In this document: positions 19,751-27,667 of the stretch, in pieces
Layout of the letters: each line of letters opens with the position of its first letter
Position numbering within the stretch: the stretch's first letter is position 1
From: Paracoccus gahaiensis
Lineage (GTDB): Bacteria > Pseudomonadota > Alphaproteobacteria > Rhodobacterales > Rhodobacteraceae
Direction: 5' to 3'
NCBI RefSeq assembly: GCF_005048225.1
Contig: NZ_SUNI01000001.1
Span: forward strand, 186,001-250,000
Length of the DNA stretch: 64,000 nucleotides
Translations under genes and position numbers: made by a program
The notes under the pieces: generated by a model
Told to the model about the DNA's origin: nothing
The model's input: the letters and a program-made list of their open reading frames with translations, nothing else
Database searches by the model: none

Positions 19751-19753
19751 AAA

Positions 19754-19767
19754 TGAACAAGCGTTCA
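19754..19767 (+). promoter_or_regulatory. Candidate repressor operator upstream of ivd
   Basis: TGAAC-N4-GTTCA is a perfect 5+5 inverted repeat placed at about +1 of the predicted promoter, where a repressor would block transcription. The shape resembles TetR-family sites used in fatty-acid and branched-chain catabolism. The actual regulator gene is not in the window. Confidence 0.5.
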
Positions 19768-19791
19768 ATAACCGGGGAGGGGGAGATCGCG

Positions 19792-20952
19792 ATGTTCACC
19801 AAGGGCATGAACTTCGATCTGGGCGAGGATGTGAACGCGCTGCGCGACATGGTGCATCGGTGGGCGCAGGAGCGTGTCGCCCCGATGGCCGCCGAGATCG
19901 ACCGCAGCAACGCCTTCCCCAACGCGCTCTGGACCGAGATGGGCGATCTGGGCCTGCTGGGCATCACCGTGGCCGAGGAATGGGGCGGGGCTGGCATGGG
20001 CTATCTGGCCCATGTCATCGCCGTCGAGGAGATCGCCCGCGCCAGTGCCAGCGTCAGCCTGTCCTATGGCGCGCATTCGAACCTCTGCGTGAACCAGATC
20101 AAGCTGAACGGCACCGATGCGCAGCGCGCGAAATACCTGCCGGACCTGTGCAGCGGCAAGGCCGTGGGCGCGCTGGCCATGTCCGAGGAAAGCGCGGGCA
20201 GCGATGTCGTCGGCATGAAGCTGCGCGCCGAGAAACGCGGCGATGTCTATGTGCTGAACGGCAGCAAGTACTGGATCACCAACGCGCCCGATGCGCATGT
20301 GCTGGTGGTCTATGCCAAGACCGATCCTCAGGCGGGGTCGAAGGGCATCACCGCCTTCATCGTCGAACGCGGCATGGCGGGGTTCACCACCGGCCCGCAT
20401 TTCGACAAGCTGGGGATGCGCGGATCGAACACGGGCGAGCTGATCTTCGACAATGTCGAGATCCCGTCCGCGAATGTCCTGGGCGAGGAGGGCCGGGGCG
20501 TTCGGGTGCTGATGTCGGGCCTGGATTACGAGAGGGTGGTCCTGGCCGGCATCGGCACCGGCATCATGGCGGCCTGCCTGGACGCGGTCCTGCCCTATGT
20601 GGCGGAACGCAAGCAGTTCGGCCAGCCGGTGGGGTCCTTCCAGCTGATGCAGGGCAAGATCGCCGACATGTATGTCGCGCTGAACACCGCGCGGGCCTAT
20701 GTCTACGAGGTCGCCCGCGCCTGCGACGCGGCCAAGGTGACGCGGCAGGATGCGGCGGGCGCCGTCCTTTATGCCAGCGAGCAGGCGATGGTGCAGGCCC
20801 ATCAGGCCGTGCAGGCGCTTGGCGGGGCGGGGTTCCTCAATGACAGCGTCGTCAGCCGCCTCTTCCGCGACGCCAAGCTGATGGAGATCGGCGCCGGCAC
20901 CAGCGAGATCCGCCGGATGCTAATCGGGCGCGAGCTGATGGGCCTCGTGTGA
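19792..20952 (+). CDS. ivd: Isovaleryl-CoA dehydrogenase
   Basis: This 386-aa acyl-CoA dehydrogenase oxidises isovaleryl-CoA to 3-methylcrotonyl-CoA with FAD, passing electrons to ETF. The catalytic base is Glu247 in [10 protein letters not shown]. That is the helix-G position typical of isovaleryl-CoA dehydrogenases, where most acyl-CoA dehydrogenases have the Glu elsewhere. Other motifs are [34 protein letters not shown] and [19 protein letters not shown] 19792 is preferred over in-frame ATG 19753, which lies inside the putative operator; GGGGAGGGGGAG precedes it. It opens the leucine-degradation cluster. Confidence 0.96.
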
Positions 20953-21585: not shown

Positions 21586-22203
21586 TCAGAAGGTCATCAC
21601 ATAGGCGACGCCGACCACCACCGGGTCGATCTCGACCTCTCCGATGACCTCACCGTTCAGCTTGACCTCGCTGTCGATGTCGATCCAGCGGATGTCGGTG
21701 CGCAGGGCCGCCCTGTCGCTGATCTTGTAGTCCAGCCCGGCATGCAGGGCGAGGCCGAAGGAATCCTCCAGCTCCAGCTCGTTGCCGGCCAGCGCGCCCG
21801 TGGTCTTCTCCTTGAAGAACACGGTATAGTTCAGGCCCGCCCCGATGAAGGGCGACACCTGCCCACCGCCGTTGAAGTGGTACTGCAGCGAGACGACCGG
21901 CGGCAGATGCTGGACCTCTCCGACGCGGCCAAGCCCCTGCAGGTTGACGGAATGCTTGAAGGGCAGGGCGGCCAGCACCTCGATGCCCAGGTTGTCGCGG
22001 ATGAAATACTCGCCGGTGATGGTCGGGCGCGCATTGCTGCCCACATCCGACCGAAGGTCCGCCAACTGGCCGTTGTCGCTCTTGGGCATGACGCTGTGAA
22101 CGCCAAGGCCCACCGTCCAGTCGCCCGCCGACTGCGCCAGCGCGGGCAGGGTCGCGCTGCCCAAGGCGGCTGCGACCGACAGCACAAGGATGTTCGTTTT
22201 CAT
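21586..22203 (-). CDS. ompW: OmpW family outer membrane protein
   Basis: This 205-aa protein has a signal peptide (MKTNILVLSVAAALGSATLP, cleaved after ALAQ) and an eight-strand beta-barrel pattern. It ends in Phe (VAYVMTF), the signature recognised by the BAM machinery. Family stretches include PTITGEYFIRDNLGIEVLAA, PPVVSLQYHF and PFIGAGLNYTVFF. OmpW proteins form small hydrophobic channels. ATG 22203 is the only start that opens directly on the signal peptide. It lies on the opposite strand inside the liu cluster, and its promoter carries an FNR box, so expression under low oxygen is expected. Confidence 0.92.
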   Translation of the reverse strand: MKTNILVLSVAAALGSATLPALAQSAGDWTVGLGVHSVMPKSDNGQLADLRSDVGSNARPTITGEYFIRDNLGIEVLAALPFKHSVNLQGLGRVGEVQHLPPVVSLQYHFNGGGQVSPFIGAGLNYTVFFKEKTTGALAGNELELEDSFGLALHAGLDYKISDRAALRTDIRWIDIDSEVKLNGEVIGEVEIDPVVVGVAYVMTF

Positions 22204-22234
22204 GGCTTTGCCCCGTTCGTGTTGACTGGACACA

Positions 22235-22275
22235 GCCTTACGCCCCCCGCCGGGCCCGGCCTTGACGTGGATCAA
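22235..22275 (-). promoter_or_regulatory. FNR-type box and promoter of ompW
   Basis: On the minus strand TTGAT-CCAC-GTCAA (22262-22275) matches the FNR consensus TTGAT-N4-ATCAA in 9 of 10 positions. A TAAGGC -10 candidate lies at 22235-22240. This puts the box centre about 41 bases before the likely start site, the classical class II activating position. Confidence 0.7.
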
Positions 22276-22346
22276 ATCCAGGGCCTGGCCGCACCGGATC
22301 TGCCGGGGCGCATTGACGCAGGCCGCGCGCCGCAACAGGAGCTTGC

Positions 22347-23951
22347 ATGAAGCTGCAATCCCGCGCCCTTCCCGGGTCCGACGCCTTCCGCGCCAACCGC
22401 GCGGCCCATCTCGACATGATCGCGGCCGTGGCCGAGGTGGCCCGCACCGCCGCCGAGGGGGGCGGCGCCAAGGCGCTGGCCCGTCATACCGGGCGCGGCA
22501 AGATGCCCCCGCGCGAGCGTGTGGCGAACCTGCTCGATCCCGGCAGCCCCTTCCTCGAGGTCGGTGCGACGGCGGCCCATGGCCTCTATGACGGCGCCGC
22601 GCCGGCGGCGGGGGTGATCGCGGGCGTGGGCCGGGTGCAGGGGCAGGACGTGATGGTCGTGGCCAATGACGCGACGGTCAAGGGCGGCACCTATTACCCG
22701 ATGACCGTCAAGAAGCACCTGCGCGCGCAGGAGATCGCCGAGGAGTGCCATCTGCCCTGCCTCTATCTGGTCGACAGCGGCGGCGCGAACCTGCCCAACC
22801 AGGACGAGGTCTTTCCCGACCGCGACCATTTCGGGCGCATCTTCTACAATCAGGCCCGGATGAGCGCCAAGGGCATCCCGCAGATCGCCGTGGTGATGGG
22901 GTCCTGCACGGCGGGCGGCGCCTATGTGCCGGCCATGTCGGACGTGACGATCATCGTGCGCGATCAGGGCACCATCTTTCTGGCCGGCCCGCCGCTGGTC
23001 CGGGCCGCCACCGGCGAGATCGTGACCTCCGAGGATCTGGGCGGCGGCGACGTGCATACCCGACTGTCGGGCGTGGCCGATTACCTGGCCGAGGATGACG
23101 CCCATGCCCTGGCCATGGCGCGGCGCGCCGTCCTGAACCTGAACCGCCGCCGCCCTGAAACGGTGCTCTGGCAACCCTCCGAACCCCCGGCCTATGACCC
23201 CGACGAGATCCTGGGCGTAGTGCCGCCCGACCTGCGCACCCCCTATGACATCCGCGAGGTCATCGCCCGCATCGTCGACGGCAGTCGCTTCGACGAGTTC
23301 AAGGCCCGCTTCGGCGAGACGCTGGTCACGGGCTTCGCCCATGTCGAGGGCTGCCCCGTGGGCATCGTCGCCAACAACGGCGTCCTCTTCAGCGAGGCCG
23401 CGCAGAAGGGCGCGCATTTCATCGAACTCTGCAGCGCCCGCGACATCCCGCTGGTCTTCCTGCAGAACATCACCGGCTTCATGGTGGGGCGCAAATATGA
23501 GAACGAGGGCATCGCCCGGCATGGCGCCAAGATGGTGACGGCCGTGGCGACCACCAATGTCCCCAAGATCACCATGCTGGTCGGCGGCAGCTTCGGCGCC
23601 GGAAATTACGGCATGGCGGGCCGCGCCTACAGCCCCCGCTTCCTGTGGACCTGGCCCAACAGCCGCATCGGCGTCATGGGCGGCGAACAGGCGGCGGGCG
23701 TGCTGGCCACCGTCCGCCGCGACGGGATCGAGCGCCAGGGCGGCAGCTGGTTGCCCGAGGAAGAGGCCGAATTCAAGCGCCCCACCGTCGAGATGTTCGA
23801 ACGCCAGTCCCACCCGCTCTATGCCTCGGCGCGGATGTGGGATGACGGGATCATCGACCCGCGCCGCTCGCGCGAGGTGCTGGCCCTGTCGCTGCGCGCC
23901 AGCCTGAACGCCCCCATCGCGCCGACCCGCTTCGGCCTCTTCCGGATGTGA
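22347..23951 (+). CDS. mccB: Methylcrotonoyl-CoA carboxylase, carboxyltransferase (beta) subunit
   Basis: This 534-aa protein transfers the carboxyl group from biotin to 3-methylcrotonyl-CoA. The order and motifs fit MccB/Liu[24 protein letters not shown] at the N-terminus, [36 protein letters not shown] (specific for methylcrotonyl-CoA carboxylase), and [16 protein letters not shown] for the N-terminal transferase half. The C-terminal half shows [13 protein letters not shown] and the oxyanion stretch [27 protein letters not shown] precedes ATG 22347. The biotin subunit follows after a 157-base gap that holds a dispersed repeat. Confidence 0.96.
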
Positions 23952-24108: not shown

Positions 24109-26037
24109 ATGTTCGACAAGATCCTGATCGCCAACCGGGGCGAGATCGCCTGCCGCGTCATCGACAGCTGCCGCCGCATGGGGGTCGCCACCGTCGCCGT
24201 CTATTCCGACGCCGACCGCGCCGCCCGCCATGTCGAGATGGCCGACGAGGCGGTCCATCTGGGCGGGCCGGCCCCCGCCGACAGCTATCTGCGCGCCGAC
24301 CGGGTCATCGCCGCCGCACGGGCCACGGGCGCGCAGGCGATCCATCCGGGCTACGGCTTTCTCTCGGAAAACCCCGATTTCGTCGATGCGATCGTGGCGG
24401 CGGGGCTGGTCTTCATCGGCCCCTCGGCAGCCGCGATCCGGGCGATGGGCCTCAAGGACGCGGCCAAGGCGCTGATGGAACAGGCCGGCGTGCCGGTCGT
24501 GCCCGGCTATCACGGCGCCGATCAGGACCCCGACCATCTGGCGCGGATGGCCGGACAGATCGGCTATCCGGTCCTCATCAAGGCGGTGGCGGGGGGCGGC
24601 GGCAAGGGAATGCGGCGCGTCGACGATCCCGCGCAGTTCCGCGACGCGCTGGACAGCGCGCGGTCCGAGGCGCAGGGCGCCTTCGGCAACCCCGCCGTGC
24701 TGATCGAGAAATACATCCTGCAGCCCCGCCATATCGAGATGCAGGTCTTTGGCGACGGCACCCGCGCCGTGCATCTCTACGAACGCGACTGCTCCCTTCA
24801 GCGCCGCCACCAGAAGGTCATCGAGGAGGCCCCGGCCCCCGGCATGACCCCCGAGGTCCGCCGCGCCATGGGCGACGCCGCCGTCCGCGCCGCCGAGGCC
24901 ATCGGCTATGCCGGCGCGGGCACGATCGAGTTCATCGTCGATGGCGCCGACGGCCTGCGCCCCGACGGCTTCTGGTTCATGGAGATGAACACCCGCCTGC
25001 AGGTCGAGCACCCCGTGACCGAGGCGATCACCGGCATCGATCTGGTCGAATGGCAGCTGCGCGTCGCCTCGGGCGAGCCGCTGCCGGCCCGGCAGGAGGA
25101 TCTGTCCATCACCGGCCATGCCTTCGAGGCGCGCCTCTATGCCGAGGACGTGCCGGCGGGCTTCCTGCCCGCGACCGGGCGCCTGTCGCATCTGCGCTTT
25201 CCCGATCAGGCCCGGATCGAGACCGGCGTGCGCCCCGGCGACGCGATCAGCCCCTGGTACGATCCGATGATCGCCAAGCTCGTGACCCATGCGCCGACCC
25301 GCGCCATCGCCCTGCGCGCGCTGGAACAGGCACTGGTCGACACCGAGGTGGCCGGATCGGTCACCAACCTTGCCTTCCTGACCGCCCTCACCCGGCATGC
25401 GGGCTTTCGCCAGGGCGAGGTCGATACCGGCCTGATCGCCCGCGATCTGGACGCGCTGATCGACGCGGGCCCGCCCGACGACCGCGCGCTGGTCCTGGGC
25501 GTGATCGGGCTGGCGGGGCTGGCCGATCCCGCCCGGCAGGGCGGCACGACCCTGTGGCAGCCCCTGCGCCGCACCATCGCATGGGAGGGGGGCTCGGCGC
25601 TTCTCGAGGTGCATGGCCCCGGCGCCGCCCGGGTGACCTTGGTGCAGCCCCACGAGGTCCTCTGGCAGGGCGGGCGCTGGTGGGTCGATGGCGATCTCTG
25701 TCGCGCGCGCATCGTGACCCATGCGGCGGGGGTCAGCGTCTTCGGCGGGCGGGTCGTGCATCTGACCCCGCTCGATCCGCTGGCCCGGACGGGCGCGGCC
25801 GAGGGCGGCGACGGGCTGACGCGCGCGCCCATGCCGGGGCTGGTCAAGGCGGTTCATGTCACCCTGGGCCAGCAGGTCGCGGCCGGCGACCGCCTTGCCG
25901 TGCTGGAGGCGATGAAGATGGAACACAGCCTGACCGCCGCCCGCGACGGGGTGGTGGCCGAGGTGCTGGTGGGCGCCGGCGATCAGGTCGAGGCCGGGGC
26001 CGCCCTCATCCGCCTGGAGGACCAGCCCGATGGCTGA
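24109..26037 (+). CDS. mccA: Methylcrotonoyl-CoA carboxylase, biotin-carrying (alpha) subunit
   Basis: This 642-aa protein has a biotin carboxylase domain (about 1-450) with ILIANRGEIACRVI, the ATP-grasp Gly loop KAVAGGGGKGMR, ERDCSLQRRHQKVIEE and EMNTRLQVEHPVTE. A linker follows, and then a C-terminal biotinyl domain whose EAMKMEHSL carries the biotinylated Lys603. The length fits MccA/LiuD rather than acetyl-CoA carboxylase AccC (about 450 aa), and its partner lies immediately upstream. GGAAGG precedes ATG 24109. The stop overlaps the next gene by eight bases. Confidence 0.95.
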   Translation: MFDKILIANRGEIACRVIDSCRRMGVATVAVYSDADRAARHVEMADEAVHLGGPAPADSYLRADRVIAAARATGAQAIHPGYGFLSENPDFVDAIVAAGLVFIGPSAAAIRAMGLKDAAKALMEQAGVPVVPGYHGADQDPDHLARMAGQIGYPVLIKAVAGGGGKGMRRVDDPAQFRDALDSARSEAQGAFGNPAVLIEKYILQPRHIEMQVFGDGTRAVHLYERDCSLQRRHQKVIEEAPAPGMTPEVRRAMGDAAVRAAEAIGYAGAGTIEFIVDGADGLRPDGFWFMEMNTRLQVEHPVTEAITGIDLVEWQLRVASGEPLPARQEDLSITGHAFEARLYAEDVPAGFLPATGRLSHLRFPDQARIETGVRPGDAISPWYDPMIAKLVTHAPTRAIALRALEQALVDTEVAGSVTNLAFLTALTRHAGFRQGEVDTGLIARDLDALIDAGPPDDRALVLGVIGLAGLADPARQGGTTLWQPLRRTIAWEGGSALLEVHGPGAARVTLVQPHEVLWQGGRWWVDGDLCRARIVTHAAGVSVFGGRVVHLTPLDPLARTGAAEGGDGLTRAPMPGLVKAVHVTLGQQVAAGDRLAVLEAMKMEHSLTAARDGVVAEVLVGAGDQVEAGAALIRLEDQPDG

Positions 26038-27667
26038 GCGGGTCGAGATCTTCGAGATGGGCCCCCGCGACGGGCTGCAGAACGAACCCCGCCTGATCCC
26101 CGCGGCGGACAAGATCGCGCTGGTCGACCTGCTCAGCCGTGCGGGCTTCGCGCGGATCGAGGTGACCAGCTTCGTGCCCCCCGCATGGGTGCCGCAGATG
26201 GCCGATGCGGCCGAGGTCATGGCCGGCATCACCCGCCGCCCCGGCACGCGCTACGCGGTCCTCACCCCCAACCTGCGCGGCTATCAGGCGGCGCGGGCGG
26301 CGGGGGCTGACATCGTGGCTATCTTCGCCAGCGCCTCCGAGGGCTTCAGCCGGGCCAACCTGAATGCCTCAATCTCTGACAGCCTGGCGCGTCTGGCCCC
26401 GGTGGCCGAGGCCGCGCGGGCCGACGGGATCACGCTGCGCGGCTATGTCAGCATGGTCACCGACTGCCCCTTCGACGGACCGACCCCGCCCCATGCCGTG
26501 GCCCGCGTCGCCGCCGCGCTGCGCGACATGGGCTGCAGCGAGATCAGCCTGGGCGACACGATCGGGCAGGGCCGCCCCGAGACCGTCGACGCCATGCTGG
26601 CCGCCGTGCTGGACGACCTGCCGCCCGACCGGCTGGCGGGGCATTACCACGACACCGCAGGCCGGGCGCTGGCGAATGTCGATGTCAGCCTCGCGCGCGG
26701 GTTGCGGGTCTTCGACGCCGCCGTGGGGGGCTTGGGCGGTTGCCCCTATGCGCCCGGTGCCGCAGGCAATGTCGCGACCGAGGCTTTGGCCGCCCATCTG
26801 ACCGCGCGGGGCTTCGATCACGGGCTGGACATGACCATCCTTCACCGCGCCGCCGCCTTGGCCCGCAGCCTCAGGGAGGCCCCCATGCCTGACACCATCC
26901 GCATTGACACCGACCCGCGCGGCGTGGCGACCCTCTGGCTCGCCCGGCCCGACAAGCACAACGCCCTGTCGCGGCAGATGATGGACGAGCTGACCCAGGC
27001 CGCAGCCCGCCTCGGTGCCGACCCGCAGGTCCGCGTGGTGGTGCTGGCGGCCCAAGGCGCCAGCTTCTGCGCGGGTGGCGATCTGGGCTGGATGCGCCAG
27101 CAGATGCAGGCCGACGAGGCGACCCGGCGCGAGGGCGCCCGCGCTTTGGCCGGGATGCTCTCGGCGCTGAACACCCTGCCCAAGCCCCTGATCGCCCGGG
27201 TGCACGGAAATGCCTTCGGCGGCGGCATCGGCATGATGGCGGTCAGCGACATCGCCATCGCCGCCAGCCCCGCGAAATTCGGCCTGACCGAGGTGCGCCT
27301 CGGCCTGATCCCCGCCACCATCGGCCCCTATGTTCTGGCCCGCATGGGCGAGCCCGCCGCGCGGCGGGTCTTCTTCTCGGCCAGGATCTTCGACGCGGCC
27401 GAGGCCGTCACGCTGAACCTCGCCGCCCGCGCCGTCGCCCCCGAGGACCTGGACGCCGCCATCGAGGCCGAGATCGCCCCCTTCCTGCAGGCCGCCCCGC
27501 AGGCGGTGGCCGCCGCCAAGGCGCAATGCCGCGCGCTCGGCCCGCGCATCGACGCCGCCGCCATCGAGGACAGCATCGACCGTCTGGTCGCCACCTGGCA
27601 GGGCCCCGAGGCCGCCGAGGGGATCGGCGCCTTCTTCGACAGACGCAAGCCCGCCTGGCAAAGCTGA
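26030..27667 (+). CDS. Fused HMG-CoA lyase (liuE/mvaB) and methylglutaconyl-CoA hydratase (liuC)
   Basis: A single 545-codon frame encodes two complete enzymes. Residues 1-285 are hydroxymethylglutaryl-CoA lyase, with MGPRDGLQNE (catalytic Arg-Asp), HYHDTAGRAL (metal His pair) and the lyase signature GGLGGCPYAPGAAGNV with the loop Cys. From residue 286 (ATG 26885) a full crotonase follows, with FCAGGDLGWM and HGNAFGGGIGMMAVSD. A strong ribosome site (agggagg) lies six bases before this internal ATG, so the hydratase may also be made separately. There is no linker. The two enzymes catalyse consecutive last steps of leucine degradation. A one-base error in the C5 run before the ATG would split the frame, so the fusion needs checking. 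Confidence 0.88.
   Translation: MAERVEIFEMGPRDGLQNEPRLIPAADKIALVDLLSRAGFARIEVTSFVPPAWVPQMADAAEVMAGITRRPGTRYAVLTPNLRGYQAARAAGADIVAIFASASEGFSRANLNASISDSLARLAPVAEAARADGITLRGYVSMVTDCPFDGPTPPHAVARVAAALRDMGCSEISLGDTIGQGRPETVDAMLAAVLDDLPPDRLAGHYHDTAGRALANVDVSLARGLRVFDAAVGGLGGCPYAPGAAGNVATEALAAHLTARGFDHGLDMTILHRAAALARSLREAPMPDTIRIDTDPRGVATLWLARPDKHNALSRQMMDELTQAAARLGADPQVRVVVLAAQGASFCAGGDLGWMRQQMQADEATRREGARALAGMLSALNTLPKPLIARVHGNAFGGGIGMMAVSDIAIAASPAKFGLTEVRLGLIPATIGPYVLARMGEPAARRVFFSARIFDAAEAVTLNLAARAVAPEDLDAAIEAEIAPFLQAAPQAVAAAKAQCRALGPRIDAAAIEDSIDRLVATWQGPEAAEGIGAFFDRRKPAWQS

Follow-up and report, generated by a model that had tools for sequence, protein, structure and literature searches.

In the stretch of Paracoccus gahaiensis DNA analysed here (64,000 bases, referred to below as the window), an HMG-CoA lyase and a crotonase-family hydratase are read in one continuous frame. 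HMG-CoA lyase and methylglutaconyl-CoA hydratase act in consecutive steps of leucine degradation, and genes that adjoin in an operon are known to become fused. The locus raises the question of whether this frame encodes an established two-in-one enzyme, a protein newly joined by mutation, or an ordinary pair of genes joined only in the assembly.

One frame through two enzymes

The frame at 26030-27667 on the forward strand is a single open frame of 545 codons terminating at TGA 27665-27667; at genome level it is G000:C12:212030-213664, and internal stops are absent. Pfam domains HMGL-like and ECH_1 were found at residues 4-276 and 297-544, respectively. The lyase part (26030-26884, 285 codons) passed the NCBIfam model for HMG-CoA lyase, NF004283, with 432 bits for the whole frame and 432.9 bits for 26030-26881 alone against a cut-off of 246, and its best solved relative by sequence was 1ydn. 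It contains PRDGLQN, HxHDT and GLGGCP...GN, which we take to be the catalytic motifs of HMG-CoA lyase, and residues R13, D14, H205, H207, C238 and N247 were invariant across 17 aligned sequences. In its full length, its score far above the cut-off and its shared motif residues, this part resembles the known HMG-CoA lyases (NF004283/PRK05692; solved structures 1ydn, 2ftp and 2cw6).

The hydratase part (26885-27667, forward strand, 260 codons plus TGA) passed the enoyl-CoA hydratase family model NF005675 with 405.2 bits for the whole frame and 407.7 bits for the hydratase part alone (cut-off 350); the corresponding scores with the gamma-carboxygeranoyl-CoA hydratase model, 219.4 and 222.9, were below its cut-off of 426. 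Like the crotonases of NF005675 (PRK07468) found in leucine catabolism clusters, it is full length with a native start and ribosome site, but it differs from them in having a lyase in frame ahead of it, and its substrate is assigned from the cluster. From its neighbours it is probably a methylglutaconyl-CoA hydratase. These matches bear out an earlier sequence-only reading, which had described a stop-free frame through both complete enzymes. Paralogues of either half in the same genome were distant, with 38% and 28% identity on the lyase side and 28-37% on the hydratase side (13 matches in total, the gene itself included).

An AlphaFold2 model of the fused protein, made with a 17-sequence alignment, had a mean pLDDT of 91.1 and a pTM of 0.55. 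The last helix of the lyase ends at residue 283, and the hydratase begins its first strand at 290. A pLDDT below 50 was found for four residues, with 284-286 the only run of three or more. As modelled, the fused protein consists of two confidently predicted domains connected by a short, loose segment, and their relative placement is not fixed by the model.

The genes upstream on the same strand fit the same pathway. They encode an acyl-CoA dehydrogenase (19753-20952), a carboxyltransferase subunit (22347-23951) and a biotin carboxylase (24109-26037). From context the first is probably an isovaleryl-CoA dehydrogenase and the other two are probably subunits of methylcrotonyl-CoA carboxylase; the models for the dehydrogenase and the NCBIfam models for the biotin carboxylase scored below cut-offs, as did TIGR01117 for the carboxyltransferase (306.7 bits), and an EAMKM carrier motif was seen by eye in the biotin carboxylase. 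Together with the lyase and hydratase they form what we take to be a set of leucine degradation genes. The acyl-CoA dehydrogenase and carboxyltransferase genes are separated by a gene for an OmpW-like outer membrane protein (21586-22335, reverse strand; 137 bits against an OmpW cut-off of 287), which lies inside this cluster.

The junction between lyase and hydratase

Reading the junction directly, we found a Shine-Dalgarno-like site of the hydratase, AGGGAGG, at 26873-26879, five bases 5' of the ATG at 26885, followed by a run of five C at 26880-26884 and by ATGCCTGA at 26885-26892. The ribosome site and separate ATG pointed out previously are thus both present. The C run is the site of the frame change and ATGCCTGA is the remnant of an 8-base overlap, with its TGA (26890-26892) outside the lyase frame. 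When nine close sequences were aligned, the window was one base short directly 5' of ATGCCTGA, and because of this the lyase misses the old stop. The junction reads GGCCCCCGATGCCTGA in G040, the nearest relative found, GGCCCCCCATGCCTGA in P. hibiscisoli and GGCCCCCATGCCTGA in the window. Before the start codon there are five C in the window, CCCCCG in G040 (whose lyase is 92% identical) and six C in P. hibiscisoli; the last base of this stretch is G rather than C in G040, so the base lost may have been a C or this last base.

Other measures of the junction agreed. The distance from the lyase ATG to the hydratase ATG was 855 bases in the window and 856 in close relatives, G040 and P. hibiscisoli among them (loci such as L020 and L095), and the spacing from the Shine-Dalgarno site to the hydratase start was 5 bases in the window and 6 in G040. 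A 211-base DNA query spanning the junction matched all 8 of 8 genus genomes, with full-query alignment in 5; the stretch measured 212 bases in four of these and 227 in the fifth. The lyase ends in REAP in the window, against REAPHA and a stop in P. hibiscisoli, and the hydratase begins at its native Met. Compared with the HMG-CoA lyase of P. hibiscisoli, the window lyase therefore lacks its last two residues and the stop and has a second enzyme directly behind it, confirming that no linker joins the two.

In an ordinary 8-base overlap the downstream gene has the stop of the upstream one within its first 8 bases; the window has no in-frame lyase stop there. Its likeness to the overlapping operon pairs of Paracoccus and relatives, mostly ATGNNTGA, extends to the same genes, the same order and the same kind of overlap, whereas one base fewer gives read-through instead of overlap. 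As far as the aligned sequences go, a single base sets the frame apart from an ordinary overlapping pair. The proposal that a one-base indel in the C run hides a ATGNNTGA overlap is thus strongly supported as a difference from relatives, but not as proof of an error. The TGA in ATGCCTGA would be met in the lyase frame only if the run were one base longer; a run of four C gives no stop there. An internal comparator is provided by the preceding junction of the same cluster, where the biotin carboxylase and the lyase share an intact 8-base overlap, ATGGCTGA (26030-26037, forward strand); this counts for the loss of a base at the hydratase junction.

The same gene pair in relatives

The first comparison set consisted of the best 80 of 179 relatives from one scan of genome contigs, two of them strains of P. 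onubensis. No lyase-hydratase fusion was found in these 80 loci, and in every one the lyase stop lay before or just inside the hydratase. The junctions comprised 33 overlaps of 8 bases, 10 overlaps of 4 bases, 4 other overlaps and 33 abutting or gapped arrangements. Among the 8-base overlaps, 32 had ATGNNTGA and one had ATGTATAA, with the lyase TGA within the hydratase start. The genes were also separate in G040 (92% lyase and 93% hydratase identity).

Of 125 genus genomes searched, the window's own included, 122 matched, and among the matches listed there were loci for its own genome and 29 others. The genes were separate in 28 of these 29; the exception, G023, was joined via a frameshift inside the lyase. 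The genus and first sets share several contigs, so the two counts are not additive. The family search covered 394 genomes at E 1e-170, a threshold favouring joined matches. It passed 26 including the window's own, and all 25 others carried at least one internal stop; the remaining 368 gave no match at E 1e-170, which does not in itself prove separate genes in each. An insensitive search of 385 genomes of the class at E 1e-115 passed three: the window's own genome, one with an internal stop and one with a match on the lyase side only. A search of plasmids gave 5 records, each covering less than 80% of the query, and in searches of one literature library on the fusion and on the pathway no title or abstract opening named this lyase-hydratase fusion. 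The comparison of closest relatives had been suggested with a conserved stop in mind; that stop was found in the relatives, against the fusion as a conserved trait.

Two groups of loci resembling the window were rejected as further fusions. G023 (locus L094) has an open frame of 553 codons, but the reading frame shifts within the lyase itself, ahead of the junction, and the usual TGA of ATGTCTGA then comes in the other frame, which is the correct one. A frame change also affects the upstream carboxylase of G023, and this genome is 79% complete with 6% contamination. The matches at L009-L012 were 1635 bases long, as in the window, but the lyase stop is present and the hydratase follows in the same frame behind it.

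Two repeat features were seen at these loci. L094 (G023:C1:1526877-1531514) carries a tandem array of a 7-base unit at L094:951-1187, with 33.9 copies and 100% matches, adjoining the hydratase gene. In L015, L019, L046, L052 and L059 (Gemmobacter and Frigidibacter), AT-rich palindromes such as tttgcaaatttctttgcaagaaatttgcgg lie in the lyase-hydratase gap just 5' of the hydratase start, and their similarity suggests a dispersed intergenic element.

Frameshift background of the assembly

About 292 kb of contig C12 were compared with G040 in 12 blocks. All 12 came from G000:C12 against G040:C1:1200001-1800000; no block came from another 200 kb of G040 or from 160 kb on the G000 contigs C46 and C57. 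The ORFs tested were those with codon periodicity, 223 of them from the window genome (243.6 kb) and 228 from G040 (239.7 kb). The final filter required periodic codons on either side of a break and a distance of 100 bases or more from both ends, so it misses breaks near gene ends; with an earlier filter, ORFs that had been extended upstream produced many false positives. The first survey had yielded 13 candidate ORFs (8 from G040 queries and 5 from G000 queries). Judged by eye from codon-position counts and, for some, translations, all but the junction looked like antisense or shadow frames, indels between genes or stretches of poor conservation.

The final filter returned 10 candidate rows in 6 ORFs, one of them the lyase-hydratase junction. 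With the other candidates judged by eye, the junction was the only clear window-side frame break relative to G040 among the 223 ORFs. C12:344939 lies upstream of a conserved start, C12:404371-404475 spans a palindromic stretch, and C12:190936-191956 and positions 312694-312772 of the fetched G040 stretch are poorly conserved or shadow frames; none was kept as a frame break. At C12:408819 the window frame is continuous and the G040 copy ends early, so that in this comparison of two genomes it is apparently G040 that carries the break. The gene presumably encodes an aldehyde dehydrogenase; G040:C1:1338866-1340002 is shortened by a one-base difference, and its counterpart G000:C12:407743-409203 is open for about 486 codons. 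The window genome is 99.98% complete. With a single clear window-side break, the assembly is not generally frameshift-rich in this region, and a real mutation is therefore somewhat favoured.

Origin of the joined frame

By a slight preference, we explain the long frame as an ordinary operon pair whose C run, which separates the Shine-Dalgarno site from the hydratase ATG, would have lost one base. The ancestral state would be that of the closest Paracoccus relatives, in which the lyase ends at the TGA in ATGNNTGA, 8 bases into the hydratase. In the deposited sequence the old TGA (26890-26892) is out of frame for ribosomes reading the lyase, and the frame they follow leads straight into that of the hydratase. 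From the comparisons above, the balance tips gently towards a base loss that is real in the strain.

A sequencing or assembly error must be taken seriously, and we consider it fairly plausible, if short of an even chance: the strain would have the ordinary overlapping pair, one homopolymer base would have been lost in assembly, and there would be no fusion. The stop is present in 80 of 80 compared loci and in 28 of 29 genus loci among the matches listed, internal stops occur in all 25 other passing family matches, and the change is one base in a C run. A single event in a single assembly, in an error-prone C run, is also how one error would be expected to look, which speaks against a real loss. 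In a study of prokaryotic reading-frame transitions (PMC3711429), adjacent-gene transitions, gene fusion and fission, indel mutations and sequencing errors are discussed as causes. The study expects singleton transitions validated by BLASTp to reflect errors of sequencing and not real indels; this class concerns a break within one protein, unlike the joined pair here. Against an error stand the 99.98% completeness of the genome and the absence of any further clear window-side break in the 223 aligned codon-periodic ORFs.

Recoding is very improbable. Some ribosomes would slip back one base, from CCC 26882-26884 to 26881-26883, and stop at TGA 26890-26892, giving lyase, fusion and hydratase from one message. 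The run of five C would permit re-pairing, and the Shine-Dalgarno-like site ends two bases 5' of CCC 26882-26884. Five C is short, however, and the slippery site is not conserved, the composition of the run varying among the eight aligned relatives; the inverted repeats found around the junction came to just three pairs, whose arms lie 62 to 103 bases from each other, and they establish no stimulatory structure.

Least probable of all, and barely credible, is an established bifunctional enzyme whose fusion serves to channel HMG-CoA from the hydratase to the lyase and is maintained by selection: the enzymes act in consecutive steps, both domains are intact and confidently modelled and the frame runs through them continuously, but all 80 relatives lack the fusion, each of the 25 other passing joined matches among 394 family genomes carries a stop, a linker is absent and the hydratase ribosome site and ATG are kept. 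The sequence-only reading had raised an unusual bifunctional enzyme, or two products from one frame; as an established feature this finds no support in the comparisons, given the 80 unfused relatives and the stops in 25 of 25 other passing family matches. On this evidence the joined frame reflects either a recent mutation particular to the strain or a slip in sequencing, and not a two-in-one enzyme that has become established.

Consequences of the putative base loss

If the base loss is real, lyase would be made only as a two-domain protein of 545 residues, and hydratase would be made both as the C-terminal half of that protein and as a free protein from ATG 26885. The free hydratase should persist because its start and ribosome site are unchanged apart from the spacing. 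With each domain complete and the two joined at their native ends, neither activity is likely to have been lost. Such a fusion would be private to the strain, recent and probably near-neutral, and not an evolved bifunctional enzyme. We give an even chance to a newborn two-enzyme protein, in which base loss fused consecutive enzymes with the free hydratase kept; some free lyase might be regained if ribosomes slip on the C run.

If the missing base is an error, the locus would be an example of a homopolymer artefact creating a false bifunctional protein in databases. 'Bifunctional' annotations that come from a single genome need to be checked against relatives. If the base loss is true, the locus would be a small, clean case of overlapping operon genes fusing by one indel with neither enzyme lost, and a natural snapshot of the first step of a gene fusion.
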